Below, in pieces: positions 4,228 to 22,000 of a DNA stretch of 35,013 bases. The notes under the pieces were generated by a model. It ran no database searches. It was not told where the DNA came from and saw nothing but the letters and a program-made list of their open reading frames with translations. Origin of the DNA: a virus; IMG/VR virus record IMGVR_UViG_3300044626_000768, positions 1 to 35,013 of that record. One strand, 5' to 3'. A program made the position numbers and the translations under genes. Every line of letters begins with the position of its first letter. Within the stretch, counting starts at the first letter, position 1.

Positions 4228-6339
4228 CTAACTCGCAAAGGTGCGGACGACTTGGATAAAGTCTAGGTTCAACGGCTCAAAGCCTGCATATAACTGCCAG
4301 ATGGCAATTACAAAACGGCTAAAGTCATCGTTGTTGTTCAGCAACACCTGGGCATTGGGGCCTCCTACCCCCATGCCTAATGCTTGGGGGCCAAAAAAGA
4401 TACCCAAGTGCGCATCAAGACTATTTACCGAAGCAACCGGCATGTTTGTTGACTCAAAAAATCTCCGAAGTTACGTTCAAGTTTTTTATCTTAAACTCTC
4501 CCTATTTCCCATATTGCGGGAGTTTCGGCCTATATCTTATACTAGTTATAACTATCTAATTTGAAACCTGAAATGAAACTTTCTAAAGAAAATTTAGCCA
4601 ATCTTTTCAGGTTTCGAGGTACTGGTCTAACTAGTATCTGGGCACTCGTGGAAGCATTACTGTCCGTTCTGGACTCGGCTTCTAGGCTCTGAACCTTCCT
4701 CTCATCCCTGAGAAGGCTTGGCTGCTGATTACCCATGCGGTTAAGCCTTTTCTAGCATTTACGTCTATCCTCGCGGATTCCGCTTTAGCGTCTTAACCTA
4801 TTCCATTTGGGGAGGGTTTCCAGACAATTCACCCAGTTATTGCCTGCCTATCACTAGGCAGCGGCGCAAGATCGCATGAGTCGTGCGATTGATTTTACGC
4901 CTTCAAAAACAAAGCCACTCGGCATCACGGGCTGTCCCTGTGGCGTATTATACTGGTTCATCTGAGGCCCACCATAGATAGCCATGTTGGGCTGCATCCC
5001 AGGAAAACCAGGATAACGTGCGACTTCACGAAACGAAGTATCTTGCCGAAGGTGCTTCATGAACCGAGGCGAACATAGGCAACGATAGTTACCATCTTCA
5101 AACGTAGGCACATTGCGATTACGAAGATTTTCCACAACAGTCAACAAGTCAGTTGCAATATTGAACTTACTTGAAGATTGTGTGCTTGCGTCTGCAATAC
5201 CGCCAGGGTTGTAGGTATTGGTAGACTTCAGCGCTTCGTTAATCCAGACACGATCACGCCAACGACGATCAATCTATTACCCGTAAAGCTCTTTATTTTT
5301 ACGTTCTTGCTCTTTACGTCGAGCAAGTTTAGACTATCTCTTCTACTTTCCTTTTATCAAGAAAGTAGCAGGGCACTCGTGGGAGGATTACTGACTGGTC
5401 TAGTCTCGCCTCCTAGTCGTTGGACCTTCCACCTATCCCTAGATGGCTTGGCTGCTGATTACCCATGCGGCTAGAACTTTTTAACCATTGTGCGTCTACC
5501 CTTACGGGTTCCGTTTTAGGGTTCTAGCCTGCTCCACCTTGGCGTTAGGTGGTGAGGGCTTCCAGCAATTCACCCCGTATTTTTTGAACGGTGTTACCAC
5601 CGAACCGACCTACGCCATTGCTAAGTCATCAAGTAAATTGAGGCTACCAATCGATTGATGGAAACCGGCCACTCCCATGTCCCATAGCATCCGTTGAGCA
5701 CGGAGAATGGTTAACTTGGGAATCTTAAAGGTACTCGGGGCAGTAGGATCTCCAGGATCTGCTGGCCCAGTGTATTCCTTCAGGCTTACCAGTACCTTCT
5801 CTTTGGTGATCGCTCGTGAGTTAGCAGTACCAATGGTTTCTGCTGCTTCACGTTCACGATTCTCTTTCGTTCCTGGGCTCATTTGTTATCCTAAGGGCTT
5901 TTTATCCCCTAGTTCTTACGGTTTATCATCCCGCAAGTTCGGCATATATCTTCACCATTTCAGGTGTTCGGCACTCTTGGCTGCTTATCATCCTGAGTTA
6001 GGACTCGCTAGATGGTTCTCCATCCAGATTGAACTTTTAACTTAGTTCAATACAGCTATGCTCTGAACCTTCTAAACATTACTGTTTAGCTTGGCTGCTG
6101 ATTGGCCACTAAATGAAGGCTTCCCAGCAATTCACCGAATTTATTACCTATTAGTTTCCTAGTAGGAGGGCAGCTAGTGTACCCCAATAGGAGTACCGAT
6201 CCAGTTGGATCGTTTCTCCGGGTTGCTTCGAAAAGTCCCACACGATCAATGGTGAAAACACCATTTCGGCAATGTAGGACGGATGGGGGCGAAAAAGCTC
6301 GGCCCCTAGTAATTGCGGAAATGCGGCATCAATGTACAT
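4228..6339 (-). CDS. major capsid protein, four exons interrupted by three group I introns
   Basis: Four reading-frame pieces join into one 341-aa HK97-type capsid protein. Predicted exons: 6339-6181 (53 codons, ending YSYWG), 5879-5624 (starting SPGTKENRERE, ending LLDD plus one base), 5269-4897 (continuing Y-RRWRDRVW, ending FEG plus two bases) and 4465-4228 (continuing V-RFFESTNMP to RTFAS and stop). Phases agree at every junction, and splicing recreates the motifs LLDDYRRWRDRV and FEGVRFFESTNMP. Unspliced, each exon runs into a stop within the following intron. ATG 6339 has AGGAG 12 nt upstream. Capsid identity comes from fold-type motifs and from position after portal and scaffold. The middle junction is the least certain. 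Confidence 0.85.
4466..4896 (-). ncRNA. group I intron 3 in the capsid gene (431 nt)
   Basis: Core elements on the minus strand: P with AATTGTCTGGAAACCC (4818-4829 region), Q as GTAATCAGCAGCCAAGCC (4715-4732), R as GGTTCAGAGCCTAGAA (4680-4695), S as AAGATATAGGCC (4527-4538). P7 pairs GCCTA of R with TAGGC of S. P1 pairs exon GGCGT with GCGCC, giving the expected U-G pair at the 5' site; P10 pairs the next exon's GAGATT with GATCTT. The P1 loop holds its own hairpin (ATCGCA/TGCGAT). No endonuclease gene is inside. Confidence 0.88.
5270..5623 (-). ncRNA. group I intron 2 in the capsid gene (354 nt)
   Basis: Core elements on the minus strand: P AATTGCTGGAA (5560-5570), Q GTAATCAGCAGCCAAGCC (around 5445-5462), R GGTCCAACGACTAGGA (5411-5426), S GAGATAGTCT (within 5327-5340). 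P7 pairs GACTA with TAGTC. A P9 hairpin CTTGCTC/GAGCAAG and a further hairpin CGTAAA/TTTACG follow S. The 5' boundary after GACT pairs with GGTC, giving a terminal U-G; the 3' boundary is chosen by reading phase and the DDYRRW motif, since P10 is not convincing here. No open reading frame inside. Confidence 0.85.
5880..6180 (-). ncRNA. group I intron 1 in the capsid gene (301 nt)
   Basis: Core elements on the minus strand: P AATTGCTGGGA (6122-6132), Q CCAATCAGCAGCCAAGC (6089-6105), R GGTTCAGAGCATAG (6056-6069), S AAGATATATGCC (5941-5952). P7 pairs GCATA with TATGC. P1 pairs exon GGGGT with GCCCT and P10 pairs the next exon's AGC with GCT; the terminal intron base is G. P9-region hairpins CTTGCGG/CCGTAAG and CTAGGG/CCCTTAG follow S. 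This is the shortest of the three, and it has no coding insert. Confidence 0.87.
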
Positions 6340-7181: not shown

Positions 7182-8306
7182 TTACGAATCCATTGCGAGA
7201 ACAGTTCCTCGAAATGCGCCTGCATTTTGTAGGTAGTCAACAATTTTCCAAGCTTCTGCTGGGTTTTGTTGATACGCCTGGCCCAGCATACTAATGTCAA
7301 CGTTCTGGCCAGCTCCAGCAGATTGAGGAGGGGCAGGAAAGCTAGGCCGTTGATAACCGATAGGATCGACCAAACGGCTTGTCGTAGAGTCCAAGCCAGC
7401 GCCATCGGGTTGAATCCGTGGATCATAGCTAGGCTCTTGGCGATAGTTGTAGTCGAACTGCTGACTTTGTTGCATAGCGGCTAATTGTTCCTTTGCTTCA
7501 TCTACAGGATAAGGACCCTCAGGGCCATAGAATTCCATTACATACTGGGCCAACAGATTAGGATCTGTCATTAACTGCCGGGCAGCAGCCATCTGGCTTT
7601 CAGTAGCTTCGAGCTGACCCGCCATATTAACCAGGCCAGCTTCTAGCTCACAAGCAAACTGGTTTACACCATCCAAGGTATAACCAGCAGCTTTTAGCTC
7701 AGCTTCAGACGGATAATAGGCATCAGTCCTTCTTACGCCGCTTAGGGGTAAGTCGCTTCGCGGCGGCTGTGAAGGTCGGGAAGAGTTGTTGTAGGATGCC
7801 TGGTTGGCGGATAAGGTCTGATTCCCCATAGACCGGAGGGGTACTCCCATAGGTTGCCCCTGGAACTGAGGCTGGGCCTGGAGGGGACTCGGACTGGATG
7901 GTTGTACCTGATCCTGGTATTGGGGTTGTGAATTCTGGCGGAAGCTGACCGGCGTTGCCAGCAAATCCAATGCCTTGTTCAGTGCTTGGGCGAATGGGTT
8001 CGAAGAATTCCCATCGGCTGCTGGGCTGTTGTAATTCCCCTGCTGTTGGTAACCCACCATATTGGGAGGGGTCGAGTAACCCTGCGGCATAGCCTGAGGG
8101 GCTGGTGCCTGCTGTTGGGGCACCGGAAACTGGACCACGTTCGTCGCCGGTTGGGCGTACTGGGGCATTTGGGCCGCTGATCCCTGGGTAGGGTAGCTGA
8201 CCTGCTGGGCCTGCGGATAACTGCCCTGCGGGGGTGCTATTGTTATCGGCGGGGATGCCTGACCTTGCACCGAAGGGGCTGTCATCGGTATATACGTTTC
8301 GCTCAT
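7182..8306 (-). CDS. putative scaffolding protein, overlapping the portal gene
   Basis: 374 aa from ATG 8306, which has GAGGA 8 nt upstream; a GTG two codons earlier is less likely. Residues 1-195 are Pro/Gln-rich and disordered, then a helical region (SEAELKAAGYTLDGVNQFAC; LEATESQMAAARQLM) and an acidic C-terminus. Placement between portal and capsid and the helical, disordered make-up match phage scaffolds. The first 584 nt are also read in another frame as the portal C-terminus. Not identified by motif, so scaffold is a positional inference. Confidence 0.6.
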   Translation of the reverse strand: MSETYIPMTAPSVQGQASPPITIAPPQGSYPQAQQVSYPTQGSAAQMPQYAQPATNVVQFPVPQQQAPAPQAMPQGYSTPPNMVGYQQQGNYNSPAADGNSSNPFAQALNKALDLLATPVSFRQNSQPQYQDQVQPSSPSPLQAQPQFQGQPMGVPLRSMGNQTLSANQASYNNSSRPSQPPRSDLPLSGVRRTDAYYPSEAELKAAGYTLDGVNQFACELEAGLVNMAGQLEATESQMAAARQLMTDPNLLAQYVMEFYGPEGPYPVDEAKEQLAAMQQSQQFDYNYRQEPSYDPRIQPDGAGLDSTTSRLVDPIGYQRPSFPAPPQSAGAGQNVDISMLGQAYQQNPAEAWKIVDYLQNAGAFRGTVLAMDS

Positions 8307-9972
8307 TATCACTTCCTCGGGATAACTCTTTTAACATCTTTTGGAACAATGTAAAGATCATTTGATCAATATATTGTCCATACTTAAACGCTAACGGGAG
8401 GTCAGGCTGCAATGGATCTTGCGTCTGCAAGAATACTTGCAATAAAGACGTTAAATTCTGTACTATTCCTAGTGTATTAGAAATACGTCTAAATGGCACT
8501 CCGCCTAACATCTTATCAATTTCTTTTTCTGTTTTGTCTGGGAAAAGAATTTGCATTTGAGCGATCGTATCAAAACCTTCTTCAGATAAGTTACGACCTA
8601 AAATACTTTTCTGTTGTAAATCAATAGGTCCATCTTCAAAGACAGGTCCGGTAAATCGCCATAGTACTGTTCTATCACCTGATGGCCTTAACCCTACTAC
8701 TCCCGGTGGTAATGGCTTTCCTTTTATTTCTTTCCCTTTATCATCTGTTCTATCATCTAGATAGAAGTCAATAAATTCAGGACTTATATTGCCATCTTTT
8801 TTTACATTCCAATTGATAGCAACTTCAAAAGAACGTTCAAACAAATATTCTTCAGCAGATACTGCTAGTTCAAATAACTTACATAGACCATAAGTATATA
8901 ACGGAACTGCCTTACGCATTGCCGTAGCAGCAGCTCTACCGTATAAACTTTTAATTTCAAATGCTGTTGCACCTGCATTGATACCATTCTCAGAAACACC
9001 ACCTAGGGCAGTCCTAATAAATTCTTCATACTGCATCGCCCAGCGGTTTTGGTCTCCTGATACAGCATCTGGCTGAATAAAACCAAACCGTTCCTCTGGC
9101 TCTACCCCACCAATGACCGGTTTAATTTTGGCAAACCGTGTTTCTTTATTTTGACCATAGTCATACTTAAAGGTAGACGGCGAATCTGCACTAGCGAAGG
9201 CTGCACTACTAGAAATTGTCCTTGGAATAGAAGACGATGAAAATGCGCTCTCTGTTACTTCCTGAGTATTACGAGTAGTAACTAGACTAGGATTCCCAAA
9301 GAATCGTATATTGTTATTGATCGCATTCATCAGATCATTATGCTCTTCGATCTGAGAAGCAATAAAGTCAAAATCTCCTATCCCGCGCTTGCCAATAGCG
9401 GTTGGATTATTATCAACTACAACACAGGGAATAATACCTAACGTATTTTTTACAACTTCTTCATTGGCAATACCTACAGGACTTAGGGCAAATCCAGGAT
9501 TGCTATCATAGGTTCCCCGTTTAATTGTTTCTTCTGTAATCTCTAACCGGACCCATTTCTCTTGGTCCATATTAGTTAGTGCAGATTTTACCTTGTAGGG
9601 ATAGGTAATAAGTACCTTCTCTATTTCTCTGCCACCTTCTCTGTAAAATACTTCAAACTCTTGTTTTTTATACCAATGAATATCATAGGTATTGCCATAG
9701 GGCCGTAGATAGAACAGTACACTACCTGTCGCAGTAAATACCTCCCATATTGCCTGCAAGTAAATATCAAGTCTATTTCGTTCCCATAGGCCTTTTATAA
9801 ATTTCTTTCGTAAATCGTAAGGATCATGGGCTGGGAAAAATTCAACACCTTGTCGTATGCCAAATAAAACCATCTGTGAAAGATGGTTTGATACGATCAT
9901 TGTATTGATTGATTCGCCACCTTCTCTATTTAAGGCTGCACTAATGATCTGATGTACGTTACTGCGTTGCAT
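7723..9972 (-). CDS. portal protein
   Basis: 749 aa, close to the size of portals of P22-like short-tailed phages. The region VVDNNPTAIGKRGIGDFDFI followed by EEHNDLMNAINNNIRFFGNP (about residues 186-235) is the classic portal stretch before the stem. A long helical region follows. From about residue 560 the chain becomes Pro/Gly/Ser-rich and ends in the basic tail AAKRLTPKRRKKD; this segment is exactly where the scaffold gene overlaps in another frame. The portal forms the dodecameric DNA channel at one capsid vertex and docks the terminase, encoded upstream in the same operon. Confidence 0.85.
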   Translation of the reverse strand: MQRSNVHQIISAALNREGGESINTMIVSNHLSQMVLFGIRQGVEFFPAHDPYDLRKKFIKGLWERNRLDIYLQAIWEVFTATGSVLFYLRPYGNTYDIHWYKKQEFEVFYREGGREIEKVLITYPYKVKSALTNMDQEKWVRLEITEETIKRGTYDSNPGFALSPVGIANEEVVKNTLGIIPCVVVDNNPTAIGKRGIGDFDFIASQIEEHNDLMNAINNNIRFFGNPSLVTTRNTQEVTESAFSSSSIPRTISSSAAFASADSPSTFKYDYGQNKETRFAKIKPVIGGVEPEERFGFIQPDAVSGDQNRWAMQYEEFIRTALGGVSENGINAGATAFEIKSLYGRAAATAMRKAVPLYTYGLCKLFELAVSAEEYLFERSFEVAINWNVKKDGNISPEFIDFYLDDRTDDKGKEIKGKPLPPGVVGLRPSGDRTVLWRFTGPVFEDGPIDLQQKSILGRNLSEEGFDTIAQMQILFPDKTEKEIDKMLGGVPFRRISNTLGIVQNLTSLLQVFLQTQDPLQPDLPLAFKYGQYIDQMIFTLFQKMLKELSRGSDNERNVYTDDSPFGARSGIPADNNSTPAGQLSAGPAGQLPYPGISGPNAPVRPTGDERGPVSGAPTAGTSPSGYAAGLLDPSQYGGLPTAGELQQPSSRWEFFEPIRPSTEQGIGFAGNAGQLPPEFTTPIPGSGTTIQSESPPGPASVPGATYGSTPPVYGESDLIRQPGILQQLFPTFTAAAKRLTPKRRKKD

Positions 9973-10005: not shown

Positions 10006-10488
10006 TCATCGAAGTTCATTGATACGTTCCATATTAAATTGCGATTTTGTTTGCCATACAATCTTGTCGTATAGGGCCATCAATCGGGTAATCAAATCAA
10101 GACTTACATAATCGCATTGATTGTTAGCAATATTGGCACATTCATTGGCGACCATTTTAGCTTTTACTAGATTCTCAGCAAACAATGGCAAAGCTACATT
10201 TTTTTCTGCGGGTAAGGGTATTTCCCCGATTGAACTCCATTGAATTACAGCACTTAGGGCACCCAACGGAAATTCATCTAGTTGTCGAATCCGTTCTGCT
10301 ACTTCATCCTTGAAGTTTGAAAGCAGTTCATAGATGTCTTTAGTCCACTCATGAACCGAAAGAAATGGACAGTCTGTCATATTCCAATGGATTGAATAGG
10401 CTAAAAATTCAAGCTTAATGATGTCAGCAAATACTTGGTTCAAGCATTCCGACATCTTGTACTGATCGGTATTAGTATCCATTGTCAT
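10006..10488 (-). CDS. dps: Dps-like ferritin family protein
   Basis: 160 aa, the usual Dps length. HW at 34-35, H46 in SVHEW, then D61 and E65 in KDEVAERI reproduce the Dps ferroxidase spacing (12, 15 and 4 residues apart, as in the E. coli protein), so the iron-oxidising site looks intact. Dps dodecamers store iron, remove peroxide and often bind DNA. The gene overlaps the upstream gene by 17 nt and precedes the portal, inside the packaging operon and so probably expressed late. The N-terminus is short and not strongly basic, so DNA binding is uncertain. A role in protecting packaged DNA or as a virion component is inference. Confidence 0.85.
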   Translation of the reverse strand: MTMDTNTDQYKMSECLNQVFADIIKLEFLAYSIHWNMTDCPFLSVHEWTKDIYELLSNFKDEVAERIRQLDEFPLGALSAVIQWSSIGEIPLPAEKNVALPLFAENLVKAKMVANECANIANNQCDYVSLDLITRLMALYDKIVWQTKSQFNMERINELR

Positions 10489-11696: not shown

Positions 11697-13277
11697 CTAA
11701 TCCTCGCTTGACAGTGGTTGATATTTAATCATTCCCCTAACCAGGTGTACAAACGCATCTTGCAGGTCATCATGGTCTGTTGCGCCATGTTGGGTTAACT
11801 CAGTAATAAGTCGAGACATATCTCGATACTTATTAAATTCAATCAACCCATCTTGAAATACACCTGTTATTGATTTTAGCCTTAAATCTTTGTCTCCTCT
11901 CACTTTTACTGGCTTACATCTTAAATTCCATAGCTGATACTTGTTATCTATAATCCTCTTCCAATCATGTTGAAAACTAACCTGATACTGAACTGCTTCA
12001 GCAAATACTGTTAATGATAAATTCTCATTCGGTACATAAGGCTGGGTTTCACTATTAGTCTGATAAATTACCCCCCATTCAACGCACATTTCTATCAACT
12101 TATCAATCTTGTCTAAGTTACCTGGCCATCGGCCTCGAACTGCTTCCAAAATGATGATTGATTCTTTTTCTTTTTTTCTAATATCATCTACCTTATGTTT
12201 ATTTAGTGCACCCATTACCATCGCGGTATAATCCCTACGCTCCTTACTCATTCCACTTAAGTCAAGCCCTATGCCAATACTTTCGGGCTCTTTTGGCAAA
12301 ATATCTGTATACCGTATCCAGGCAGGATCAATAGATATATCACTACTCTTTGCTACCTTATTTTGGTATTGAAACGAGAAAGAGATTGGGTCTTTCTCTC
12401 TCATTTCATATAATCCTTCGATTTCATCGCCATGGTCATTAAACTGTGACCGATAGGGAAATCGTGTTTCCCAGTAACTAAATTCTTGCCCTTCATTGTC
12501 GGTAAGAATCGCTTCTTGTTCTACGACTGTCCATCCATTTTGCTCTGTAAAATCACTAGCATGGAGGTCATCTGCCCTAAATCTAGTGCCAATTGCTAAC
12601 ATCCTACCGCCAGGCACTAGGGTTGGCTTAGCTGCATCTCTCCAGTTGTTTGATATTTTTTCTCGTATATCACCACTTTCAATTGACTCACGGCTTTTGA
12701 TTGGGTCATCTACTACAATCAACCATGATCGTTTAGATACAATCCCGCCATCAATCCCAACAGCATACAATGTATAATCTTGCTCCAGGTTAGATACCCC
12801 TGCAAATTGTTTATCGATCTCCCACTCACCATCATTAAACTTCTTCTTATTAGGCCTAATATGTGGAAATACTTCTTGGTATTTAGGCGTTTGTAAGATT
12901 CTTTTTATAATCCGACTACGACTAAGGGCAATATCTGTTTTGTACGATAGATAAATAATCGGTATTGCTGGATTATGGCCAATAATCCACGCTACTAAAT
13001 AAGAAATAACTGTTGATTTAGCGGCCCCCCGTGGCGACAGGATTGATATATTAGGCCCAGCTACCATGCTAAGAACATGGTTTGATCGACCTGTCACCCA
13101 ATGGCTTACCCATTCTTCCATGTGACAATGGGCAATCGTATGGCCGCTTATATAAGCCATGAAGGCAGGGAAATCATTCCTTGCCTGTTTTACTTCATCG
13201 CTTACGAATATATCCTCAGCCGATGTAGCGTAATGTCTTGCCTTGAACTGATGCCGCCGCCATGCTCTTGTTGGCAT
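11697..13277 (-). CDS. terL: terminase large subunit
   Basis: 526 aa packaging motor. The ATPase domain shows Walker A SPRGAAKST at 81-89, Walker B LIVVDD at 186-191 and the coupling motif GTRF at 230-233. The C-terminal RNase H-like nuclease begins at GIGLDLSG (335-342, catalytic Asp 339), with a late acidic cluster in TDHDDLQDAF near residue 505. Length and motif order are complete. It follows the small-terminase candidate after 8 nt. The enzyme cuts concatemers and pumps DNA through the portal. Confidence 0.95.
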   Translation of the reverse strand: MPTRAWRRHQFKARHYATSAEDIFVSDEVKQARNDFPAFMAYISGHTIAHCHMEEWVSHWVTGRSNHVLSMVAGPNISILSPRGAAKSTVISYLVAWIIGHNPAIPIIYLSYKTDIALSRSRIIKRILQTPKYQEVFPHIRPNKKKFNDGEWEIDKQFAGVSNLEQDYTLYAVGIDGGIVSKRSWLIVVDDPIKSRESIESGDIREKISNNWRDAAKPTLVPGGRMLAIGTRFRADDLHASDFTEQNGWTVVEQEAILTDNEGQEFSYWETRFPYRSQFNDHGDEIEGLYEMREKDPISFSFQYQNKVAKSSDISIDPAWIRYTDILPKEPESIGIGLDLSGMSKERRDYTAMVMGALNKHKVDDIRKKEKESIIILEAVRGRWPGNLDKIDKLIEMCVEWGVIYQTNSETQPYVPNENLSLTVFAEAVQYQVSFQHDWKRIIDNKYQLWNLRCKPVKVRGDKDLRLKSITGVFQDGLIEFNKYRDMSRLITELTQHGATDHDDLQDAFVHLVRGMIKYQPLSSED

Positions 13278-18398: not shown

Positions 18399-19070
18399 AT
18401 GACAACCTATAGCAATATAAGTCTATCTTGTATTCATCCAAGCGCTTGCAACTATTTCTCTAAAATCCTTGAATCCACAGGTGATCCTAAGGAGTTATGG
18501 TTTATTGGGCGTGGAACACCCCCGCCTTCTTACCCTATTGATCATTTTATTAAACTAGATAGTCCATACGTGTCTAGGCAACATGCTTGCCTTCGATATT
18601 CAATTATCGATGATTACTGGCAAATTAGACACATTGGCAGTACCCATCCTACTTGGCTAAATGGTACAAAACTAACTGCAAATGAATGGCATGATATTAC
18701 CGAAGGTGCCATTGCTAAGTTTGCAGTAGACGAATGTAAGCTTATATTTTCTTACTACATCGATGATACTATCCAGAATCTACCCTTTTTTGACACTACA
18801 GAAAAGTTACAACAATTACCATCTACCGAGCAGGTTATTGTTCCTGTTCCAGCGTCAACTGTTATTGTTGAGCAAGATCATAAAACACCTTTTTGGCAGG
18901 TAGCTTTTATTGATCAGGTATTTGATGAACTTAGCTCTTTATCAAATACCAAGCTTATAATTTACTTAATGTTCTTTTTGGCTGGTCTAACAATCTTTTT
19001 GTTATACGGTGCCGCAAGCATTCCCAATTTACCTGCCGTTAATCAAGAGGCTCCCCATACTTTTGATTAG
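18399..19070 (+). CDS. FHA-domain membrane protein
   Basis: 223 aa. Residues 34-115 form an FHA domain: IGRG at 36-39, IKLDSPYVSRQHA at 51-63 (Ser59, Arg60, His62) and GSTHPTWLNG at 80-89, the residues that read phosphothreonine. A linker follows, then one strong transmembrane helix at about 185-205 (LIIYLMFFLAGLTIFLLYGA) and a short tail. FHA domains recruit threonine-phosphorylated partners, so it could dock a host or phage phosphoprotein at the membrane. It is followed after 7 nt by the 1266-aa gene, probably co-transcribed. No clear ribosome site. A phage FHA membrane protein is unusual. Confidence 0.85.
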   Translation: MTTYSNISLSCIHPSACNYFSKILESTGDPKELWFIGRGTPPPSYPIDHFIKLDSPYVSRQHACLRYSIIDDYWQIRHIGSTHPTWLNGTKLTANEWHDITEGAIAKFAVDECKLIFSYYIDDTIQNLPFFDTTEKLQQLPSTEQVIVPVPASTVIVEQDHKTPFWQVAFIDQVFDELSSLSNTKLIIYLMFFLAGLTIFLLYGAASIPNLPAVNQEAPHTFD

Positions 19071-19077
19071 GTGACCC

Positions 19078-22000
19078 ATGGTTCTTACAATTGTTGACGA
19101 CCTTAGTCGTTTTGCTAATTTACCTCCTAAAATCCAAGACCGTATAAAACAAGCCCAAGACATTTATGGGATCGATTATTCTCGTCGTACTCGTCAACAA
19201 GAAGCTTTTCTTGCTTCTGTAGAAGATGAATTAGAACGTGGCATCTATGATTCAGTCCCTACGGCAGCTTCTGGTAGGCGGGCGTTCAGGCCTGTTAGTC
19301 AACCAGTTGTTGTAAACCTTCCTACTCCAGCGCAAGAAGTAGCTTATCGGATTATTAAGCCAGATCCGACTAAGCCTAGACCGACTGACTACATAAGTCC
19401 TCAGTATTCAGACGATGAATTAGAAGCTGTAAACGAATTTACAACTCCGTTGTATCCGCCTAACCCTCAGTTTAAACGTGGTTATATAACAGAAGTCAAT
19501 ACTGATTATGAGCCTCCGCTTTATCGGCGCAGAAATCTTTCCGAGTACTCTCAAGATGCAGCGTCTGCTGGTGCTACACCACAACGTTCTAATGTTCCTA
19601 GGCGGCTACAGAGTGAGTATGACCGTCAAATGGAATCATTGATTGATGAATTTAGTGATCAACTAAGGAGTACTCGTGCCCCTGCGCCTACATCAGCTTC
19701 TGTAGGTGACACTCTTTATAGTATCTATGACAATTTGCTTTCCCGTCGCGGAGTTGCCTTATCAGGTTCCGACTTACCTCCTGAACTAATGAGAGCAGGA
19801 GCTAATGAAGAAGTTCCTTATATTCGTGCATCAGATGATAAGGGTAGGGCCTCTAAGAAGAGTGTTATACCTCTTCCTTCTGAGATAGACCTCACCAAAG
19901 AATTGTCTACCGCTGCGGCGGCTCAGCCTGGTTTGGTCACTCAATATCAAGACCGACGGCTCCTCAGAGATCCAGATCAACCTTATGCATCAAAGCCATT
20001 TGACTATGCTACAGGTGAATCCCTGTACAATGCTGGCATTACAGATAGAGTTGACAGTGAATTATCTAATCTTGTTAGGATTGAAGGCCGCAACGAATTT
20101 GCTGGTGTAGATGAATTTGGCAGAGGCATTCTTTACGCCAGTCTAATTGATAGAACTGACCCCGACTTTCTTAGAACATTTGACGATCGTAAACGCTACA
20201 CTCAAGCGGCTGGCTGGGCAGGTCTTGCTAGCGGACAAGCAAGACTTCCTAGAATTGTTCAGGGTAATCTTTTACAAGAGGCTCCATTTGGTGAGTCCGG
20301 CCCTGAATACCTTGCAAGAGTCAATCAATCTCGGGCAGAGGCCCAGGCTACGGAGACTGCTAATCGTGCCCTACGTGATCAGATTGCTCGTGAGCGTATC
20401 CTCCAGGATCGTGCTGAAGCCGCTTCTCTAGGACAGACTAATGCTATCATCCAACCTATTCAACCAGGTGCCCTTACTCGCGAGGAAGCCGCAGAAGGCG
20501 CTTTTGATGAATATGCAGATGCTATTAATGCTTCTTTGCGGGTAAATCCTCAGGCGGACATATTAGCCCCTGGCTTATTCTCTCTTGGCTCTGGCGCGCA
20601 CAACGTAACTCAACGTACCCTAATTAGACAAACACCTGAAGGGCCTGTTTCAGTCGTTGGTGTTCCTGATAATGCTGGATTATCCTACCCGGCTGGCTTG
20701 ACTCCGGTTCTCCAAAACCCTATTAGCCTGCGTACTCAGTCTGTCAGCTATCGCCCTGGTGCATTTTATCGTGATACTAGCACTAAGCCTGTCCAAAGCG
20801 ATTTGGTAGGGGCTGAAGAGACAATTGAGGGTCAATCTGAAGCCGCTCGACGCCCAGCCCTCCTTGCTTTTGATGTTAATCCTGAAGATCCAGGTGGTTT
20901 ACCCCAGGGTGAATTTGCTAGACGCTTATTCAAACCTGGTGATCCGCTACAATTTAGCGCTCAAGTTAGTAAAGGCCAGGCTGCACTCAGAGGTCAGATG
21001 CAAAGCATCATTGATCCCATTGCAGCTCCTACTGTAGTTCGTGGCATGGACCCCCTAACAGCAGCTCAGCGGAGTATTGATTACCTTGATGAACAAATGA
21101 CCCTCCTAGAACCATTTGTTCAAGCTGGTCGCCAAATATCAGCTTCTACTCCTGGCAAAGCTAAGAACAATGAATACAATATCTACCTCCAACAAGCAGA
21201 CTCCCTGCGCCAACAACGCCAACAACTAGCTTCATTACTTCGTGACTATGAAGAGCTAGAAGTTGCTAAGGAGCGGTTTGACCAAAATCTAAGTGCAGCA
21301 AGTAATTTAGCTATTTCACCCCGCAGTGCAGAGACTGTGACTGGTCTAACGGCTGATGGGCAAGAGGTTACTGTACCTCTTCAGGACTTTATGAAGGACC
21401 AACGGGCTCAACCTACGGTTAGTCGCTTTGGTATTCCTCTTCAGTCTCAAGGGCCTCGTGCTATACCCGGAGATGCGTCAGGTGAATACTTCGAGTATGG
21501 CAATCCTGACGCTGTTAGCATTGTTTCTGACTGGGATGAGCCTGTATTTAAGGCATTAGTCGCCGCAGACCCCACGATTACCCCTAATCAGGCCCGTCGT
21601 GGCGTTCAATGGCGTCAAGTTCGTGTTCCTAACAGCAAAGCAGTCAAGATTGAAGTTGTTAACCCTGGTGTTCCAGTTGCTGATGCGTCTGGCGCTCCGA
21701 TTACTTACAATCCAACCCAATTGATTGGCTATGATTCCCAGGTAGGGCCTTATGTAGAGCGTAAGTTGCCCGATAATATTGAAAGTAACCGCCAAATGCG
21801 GCAAGAACGGCTTGCTGCTGGTCGTGAAGGCTATACTCCCCCACCTATTAGTCCTAATATTCCTATTAAATACAACCCTGCACGACCTGGTTATCCCTTT
21901 GCCTTGCCTGAAATGCGTCGGACAGCCTATACTCCCACGCCTGAACCCACTTCAGACATTATTCTACCCCTCGCTTTAGAGGCAGATAGGTTATCTCCAG

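Follow-up and report, generated by a model that had tools for sequence, protein, structure and literature searches.

A long out-of-frame overlap between the portal gene and a probable scaffolding protein gene in phages related to Synechococcus phage S-EIV1

Phage genes that begin inside another gene are known from several systems. In phage lambda, the scaffold Nu3 is nested in the upstream head gene C and is begun at an internal site, and the lambda genes Rz and Rz1, the latter encoding a small lysis protein, overlap out of frame, with an internal start. Out-of-frame overlapping genes with internal starts are also found in the Microviridae phage phiX174 (PMC8227390). In virus reference genomes, +1 overlaps have a median length of 14 nt with an interquartile range of 8-26 nt (PMC8903798), compared to approximately 500-680 nt at the locus described here, and in another survey the largest overlap common to families by near-identical sequence was 185 nt (PMC7017920). 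The present locus resembles lambda C/Nu3 in that the start of the probable scaffold is internal to an upstream head gene; however, the lambda nested product is read in the same frame and shares one protein sequence with its host gene, whereas here two unrelated sequences are encoded. It also differs from phiX174, a small single-stranded DNA phage short of space, as the genes involved are two head-assembly genes of a tailed double-stranded DNA phage whose genome measures about 80 kb (79 kb in S-EIV1). One would expect out-of-frame overlaps hundreds of bases long in tiny viruses with little room, not between core head genes of a phage of this size. The order of portal, scaffold and major capsid genes is the same in phage T7 (genes 8, 9 and 10, encoding connector, scaffold and capsid), and the T7 scaffold (307 aa) is similar in length to the downstream protein considered here, but T7 genes 8 and 9 are set 99 nt apart, and hhalign detected no relation between the T7 portal and scaffold and their counterparts in our sequence. 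A literature search found no published description of an out-of-frame portal/scaffold overlap, although most subscription papers lay outside the search and absence is not proof.

The stretch of DNA analysed as a whole (hereafter the window) is a 35,013-base IMG/VR virus record, IMGVR_UViG_3300044626_000768. According to its list of open reading frames, two minus-strand ORFs share 584 nt (194.7 codons), bounded by the ATG at 8306 and the portal stop at 7723; the frame of the downstream ORF is +1 with respect to that of the portal. The downstream ORF is listed as 7182..8312, its first listed start being a GTG at 8312, with the ATG at 8306. The features of the locus are as follows.

7723..9972, minus strand: portal ORF, 749 aa; core of residues 1 to ~555, then a C-terminal tail of ~195 residues, predicted to be disordered and encoded by the overlap
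7182..8306, minus strand: ORF of the downstream head-assembly protein (374 aa, start ATG 8306), a probable scaffolding protein; family present in 212 of 212 two-gene sequences
7723..8306, minus strand: overlap of 584 nt with dual coding; the probable scaffold is read +1 with respect to the portal
8314..8318, minus strand: GAGGA, resembling a Shine-Dalgarno site, with a 7-nt spacer to the inner ATG; predicted pairing -5.9 kcal/mol
7947..8000, minus strand: conserved motif of the downstream frame, NPFAQALNKALDLLATPV, residues 103-120, inside the overlap; predicted helix; S-EIV1 counterpart NPWESAFNKVVNLLSAPV
7777..7821, minus strand: conserved motif of the portal frame, SDLIRQPGILQQLFP, portal residues 718-732, inside the overlap; S-EIV1 counterpart ADLASQPGILAQLFP
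7503..7532, minus strand: FYGPEGPYPV, conserved motif of the downstream gene, beyond the overlap
7188..7292, minus strand: helix pair predicted at the C-terminus of the downstream protein, residues 339-373; pLDDT ~83-87 in part of the pair

The product of 7723..9972 is identified as the portal protein by matches to phrog_64 and phrog_104 among the members and by its position after the large terminase gene (11697-13277, upstream of the portal). The window ORF itself matches phrog_20475 (E 8.7e-147) and the portal family phrog_64 (E 4.9e-7); across the members, matches to portal families are weak and partial (phrog_64 in 10 of 39, phrog_104 in 1 of 39), and the AF2 model of the portal (mean pLDDT 43.7) is too poor for confirming the fold. 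The reading of 584 nt, about 195 codons, in two frames, first proposed from the letters alone, is borne out by the ORF coordinates and by the relatives described below. The GAGGA site that this sequence-only reading placed upstream of the inner ATG is indeed present, but the spacing is 7 nt and not 8 nt as it gave.

Among 50,697 phage records, the window portal has one relative, Synechococcus phage S-EIV1 (KJ410740), with 35% identity by tblastn and 39% in a global alignment; this is the sole annotated relative found. Single window proteins used as queries against IMG/VR gave no match, and a two-sequence alignment was required. The portal-based IMG/VR scan then matched at least 526 relatives, 80 of which were kept, and GTDB added four more. 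Two later scans, one queried with the C-terminal portion of the window major head protein and one with the downstream protein, resulted in a set of 243 sequences comprising IMG/VR and GTDB loci, S-EIV1 and the window, in which some loci are different cuts of one contig. As the third scan was queried with the downstream protein itself, the portal-based scan is the unbiased one; made without selection for the downstream gene, it showed the overlap in every retrieved locus covering the region. The +1 overlap in the same frame is present in all 212 sequences carrying both genes, the few short overlap values among them belonging to contigs that begin or end within the overlap. Its length from the ATG is 464-677 nt, with a median of 533 nt (200 loci, 158 distinct overlap sequences). 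A Shine-Dalgarno-like site precedes the inner ATG in 197 of the 200 testable starts, having the form AAGGAG or GAGGT in most relatives. Queries with the portal, scaffold or major head protein found no relatives without the overlap, and no relative showed the early stop in either frame that the sequence-only reading had named as a refutation. One locus from a MAG contig (L085:5753-7387) has a portal frame open only from mid-gene, and therefore a broken or interrupted 5' part; its overlap is intact.

The portals fall into three lineages, of 58 sequences, 25 sequences and the window alone, with identity of about 50% between the former two and about 35% to the window. The frame-specific motifs of both genes persist at 35-39% portal identity, and the overlap is older than the split of the three lineages. 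The window and S-EIV1 have a common head module, in which the portal, the downstream protein and the major head protein are recognisable, and the window is assigned to the S-EIV1-like phages on this basis. The overlap has been kept by selection, while portals diverged to about 35% identity, in an environmentally common and widespread cyanophage-like group related to S-EIV1. As it is long-kept and common, and the genome is about 80 kb, saving of space is a poor explanation, and a role in regulation or co-assembly becomes testable.

In S-EIV1, the gene order, the +1 overlap and the motifs (AHV82224 and AHV82225) are as in the window. The overlap comprises 554 nt (59287-59840) from an ATG at record position 59287, with AAGGAG 7 nt before it; the corrected ORF spans 59287-60264, and its product would begin with MQDATVQSIPQ. 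In GenBank, AHV82225 is a protein of 134 aa with the start at 59863, past the portal stop, so that the overlap is unannotated and the start lies about 190 codons late. Since the frame is open up to an ATG preceded by AAGGAG, and the upstream extension aligns with that of the window, NPWESAFNKVVNLLSAPV standing opposite NPFAQALNKALDLLATPV, the deposited start is very probably wrong. The scaffold candidate of S-EIV1-like phages is thereby annotated at less than half of its length, and searches, proteomics and functional calls that depend on this record miss the part encoded by the overlap. The major head protein of the same record (KJ410740, 60784-62010) looks misannotated too: a 383-aa ORF from a GTG at 60859 appears there as a C-terminal piece of 156 aa and an opposite-strand gene.

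Selection was estimated from dN/dS counts, with changes split by their effect in each frame, in disjoint pairs and with mock-frame controls. In the overlap, dN/dS of the downstream frame is 0.22-0.32, versus 0.64-0.81 for this frame in stretches free of gene overlap; that of the portal frame is 0.40-0.67, versus 1.4-1.7 for the mock frame (downstream gene past the portal stop), the portal core having values of 0.02-0.06. Bootstrap intervals are apart from those of the mock frames at every divergence except for the closest pairs, in which they barely overlap (portal frame, 0.47-0.99 vs. 0.92-2.55; downstream frame, 0.24-0.42 vs. 0.41-1.14). Purifying selection acts on both frames in the overlap, more weakly on the portal frame. 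The conservation of synonymous sites, a check suggested together with the original observation, agrees with this, as synonymous change is lowered in the overlap in both frames. Among close pairs, portal-synonymous sites that alter the other protein differ in 3% of cases in the overlap and in 18% upstream, approximately a 6-fold drop. Downstream-frame synonymous change is 0.11-0.21 (~0.18) before the portal stop and rises to 0.38-0.48 (~0.41) past it. Within the overlap, variation peaks at the first codon position of the portal frame. This is the third position of downstream-frame codons, so the downstream protein is the more constrained one there. Constraint alternates along the overlap, and the well-conserved motifs of each frame are found at separate places. 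The open frames, the selection and the conserved ribosome site uphold double coding with an internal ATG, and the overlap is, from its sequence conservation, a real, conserved and unusually long out-of-frame overlapping gene pair in a tailed-phage head module.

Several other explanations of the double open frame were considered. The G+C content of the overlap is higher than that of its flanks, and the overlap is rich in Pro, Gln and Ser codons, as would be expected if the second frame were a by-product of GC-rich, low-complexity sequence; however, the third frame of the same bases contains 6.9 stops on average, and the motifs are conserved position-specifically. In 84 sequences, which are kin and hence not independent tests, so that their divergence gives the weight, the +1 frame of the overlap contains no in-frame stops, versus 2.7-3.1 expected per sequence when the portal protein is kept and synonymous codons are resampled, a procedure that leaves the frame open in about 7% of trials on average. 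For the window, the +1 frame stayed open in none of 300 trials with codons resampled from upstream usage and the portal protein kept, and in 1.7% when the synonymous codons of the overlap were permuted. Upstream of the overlap, the window portal has about 12 stops in the +1 frame per equal length, and equal-length upstream portal stretches across the set have 7.8 and are never open. The by-product reading is refuted by the stop counts and by selection in both frames, and its probability is negligible. It is improbable, too, that the portal tail is an idle frame, open only since the downstream gene needs the bases. Compared with the core, the overlap shows far weaker constraint on the portal frame, and AF2 gives almost no structure there, but dN/dS of 0.40-0.67 is under the matched mock value of 1.4-1.7, no relative has a stop in the portal tail, and the motif ADLxxQPGILxQLFPN is conserved across lineages. 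Nevertheless, as the constraint is weak, the tail may be only mildly important.

The sole deposited annotation (AHV82225, 134 aa) implies that only the stretch past the portal stop is a gene and the open frame upstream of it is incidental. This is hardly credible, as the upstream frame is uninterrupted in every relative and shows a conserved ATG, a conserved ribosome site, dN/dS of 0.22-0.32 and conserved motifs, while the annotated methionine is not kept in other lineages. Slightly less remote, though still very improbable, is a +1 ribosomal frameshift producing a portal-scaffold fusion: it would agree with the +1 relation observed throughout, but not with an ATG opening the frame in almost every locus and a ribosome site in 197 of 200, nor with the portal frame retaining its own conserved C-terminus, which a fusion would not need.

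The overlap-encoded parts of both products consist of Pro, Gly, Gln and Ser by 44-51% and are poor in bulky hydrophobic residues, and both are predicted to be disordered, save for one conserved helix in the downstream protein; the description of these parts as Pro/Gly/Gln-rich and disordered agrees with both composition and predicted models. The AF2 model of the downstream protein, of low overall confidence (pTM 0.25), has a disordered first half with a helix at residues 104-116, helices from 201 to 286 (211-247, 249-260 and 269-286) and a C-terminal helix pair. Known scaffolds bind the capsid protein by a C-terminal helical end of similar sort. The gene order is portal, downstream gene, small proteins (present in most relatives) and major head protein. 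Searches of Pfam, PHROGs, PDB and BFVD gave no credible match for the downstream protein, the PDB and BFVD comparisons being empty or meaningless. Gene order and predicted architecture, rather than homology, indicate that it is likely a scaffolding protein; the position between portal and major head protein is in keeping with the earlier scaffold assignment, and no sequence match to any scaffold family was found. Since scaffolds diverge fast, the lack of such a match is weak evidence against this function. A less likely, though by no means marginal, reading accepts the overlap as real and translated and assigns the downstream protein another role, be it that of an internal core or ejection protein, a decoration protein or an assembly chaperone specific to the portal. 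The missing homology, the additional small proteins of unknown role before the major head protein in most relatives, and the low confidence of the model would allow for this. It is opposed by the position between portal and major head protein, comparable to that of T7 gene 9 between genes 8 and 10, by the length of 310-376 aa, by the flexible front half and C-terminal helix pair, and by the fact that no other gene in the interval is equally conserved and of such size.

We consider it likely that this is a true out-of-frame pair, in which the portal is made from a weak upstream site and a separate head-assembly protein, most likely the scaffold, from a strong inner site. Ribosomes starting at the weak upstream site would produce the 749-aa portal, the last ~195 residues of which would form a disordered tail with a short conserved end motif. 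From the strong internal Shine-Dalgarno site and ATG, other ribosomes would read the +1 frame to give the separate 374-aa protein, with a flexible Pro/Gln-rich N-terminal half carrying the conserved helix (overlap), followed by helices and the C-terminal pair (past the portal stop). The disorder of both products might let the shared stretch persist. In 13 representatives, predicted ribosome pairing is mostly 0 to -4.7 kcal/mol at the portal start, with one value of -8.2, and -5.8 to -8.9 kcal/mol at the inner start, the window having a site of the weaker kind (-5.9). The portal is a dodecamer, and scaffolds number hundreds in well-studied phages; therefore, unequal initiation on one mRNA, giving few portals and many scaffolds, would suit both. 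Weak portal and strong inner sites would fit such output, although ribosome-site strength predicts expression poorly, and transcription from an internal promoter could serve equally. The suggestion that the overlap could fix the scaffold to portal ratio has indirect support from the ribosome-site strengths. A broader proposal, that ancient dual coding throughout the lineage sets portal and scaffold output and that the co-encoded disordered segments may act together at the portal vertex during prohead nucleation, is put forward as a tentative and rather doubtful one. An origin by overprinting, also suggested from the letters alone, is possible, with clues to polarity that disagree: codon usage, slightly nearer to that of the phage genome for the portal frame in 30 of 39 members, points to the portal frame, whereas selection is heavier on the downstream frame. 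Dating of the frames by codon usage was rejected as being at odds with this stronger constraint.

In the larger sister lineage, low portal synonymous change also extends over some 90 codons ahead of the overlap, within the ~300 nt that precede the inner ATG (window 8307-8606). A 23-nt element, GTTGATAGCATTGAAGCACTGAA (L247:19031-19053), is near-invariant in both sister lineages, most synonymous sites included, but not in the window. The low-variation tract is possibly an internal promoter, an RNA element or a recombination tract. A hidden third ORF upstream of the inner ATG was rejected, as stops break the other frames in most loci, and a repeated promoter as the cause of the low synonymous change is unsupported, GTTGATAGCATTGAAGCACTGAA occurring once in S-EIV1.

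Other features of the head gene cluster were also observed. The major head protein gene of the window (4228-6339, minus strand) is split by three group I introns, and its exon pieces match the S-EIV1-type major head protein.

5915-6190 and 5306-5633, minus strand: group I introns, above the Rfam threshold
4505-4894, minus strand: group I intron, just under the Rfam threshold (48.3 bits, cut-off 50, E 3.6e-11)

In another locus (L037:8445-10601), an insert with a LAGLIDADG homing endonuclease (phrog_11023) splits this gene. Within the clade, the major head protein gene is therefore targeted repeatedly by mobile introns. A ferritin-like protein (PF00210) is encoded in the head cluster of the window next to the portal gene (10006-10488, minus strand), while the ferritin-like gene of S-EIV1 sits elsewhere (18619-19173).
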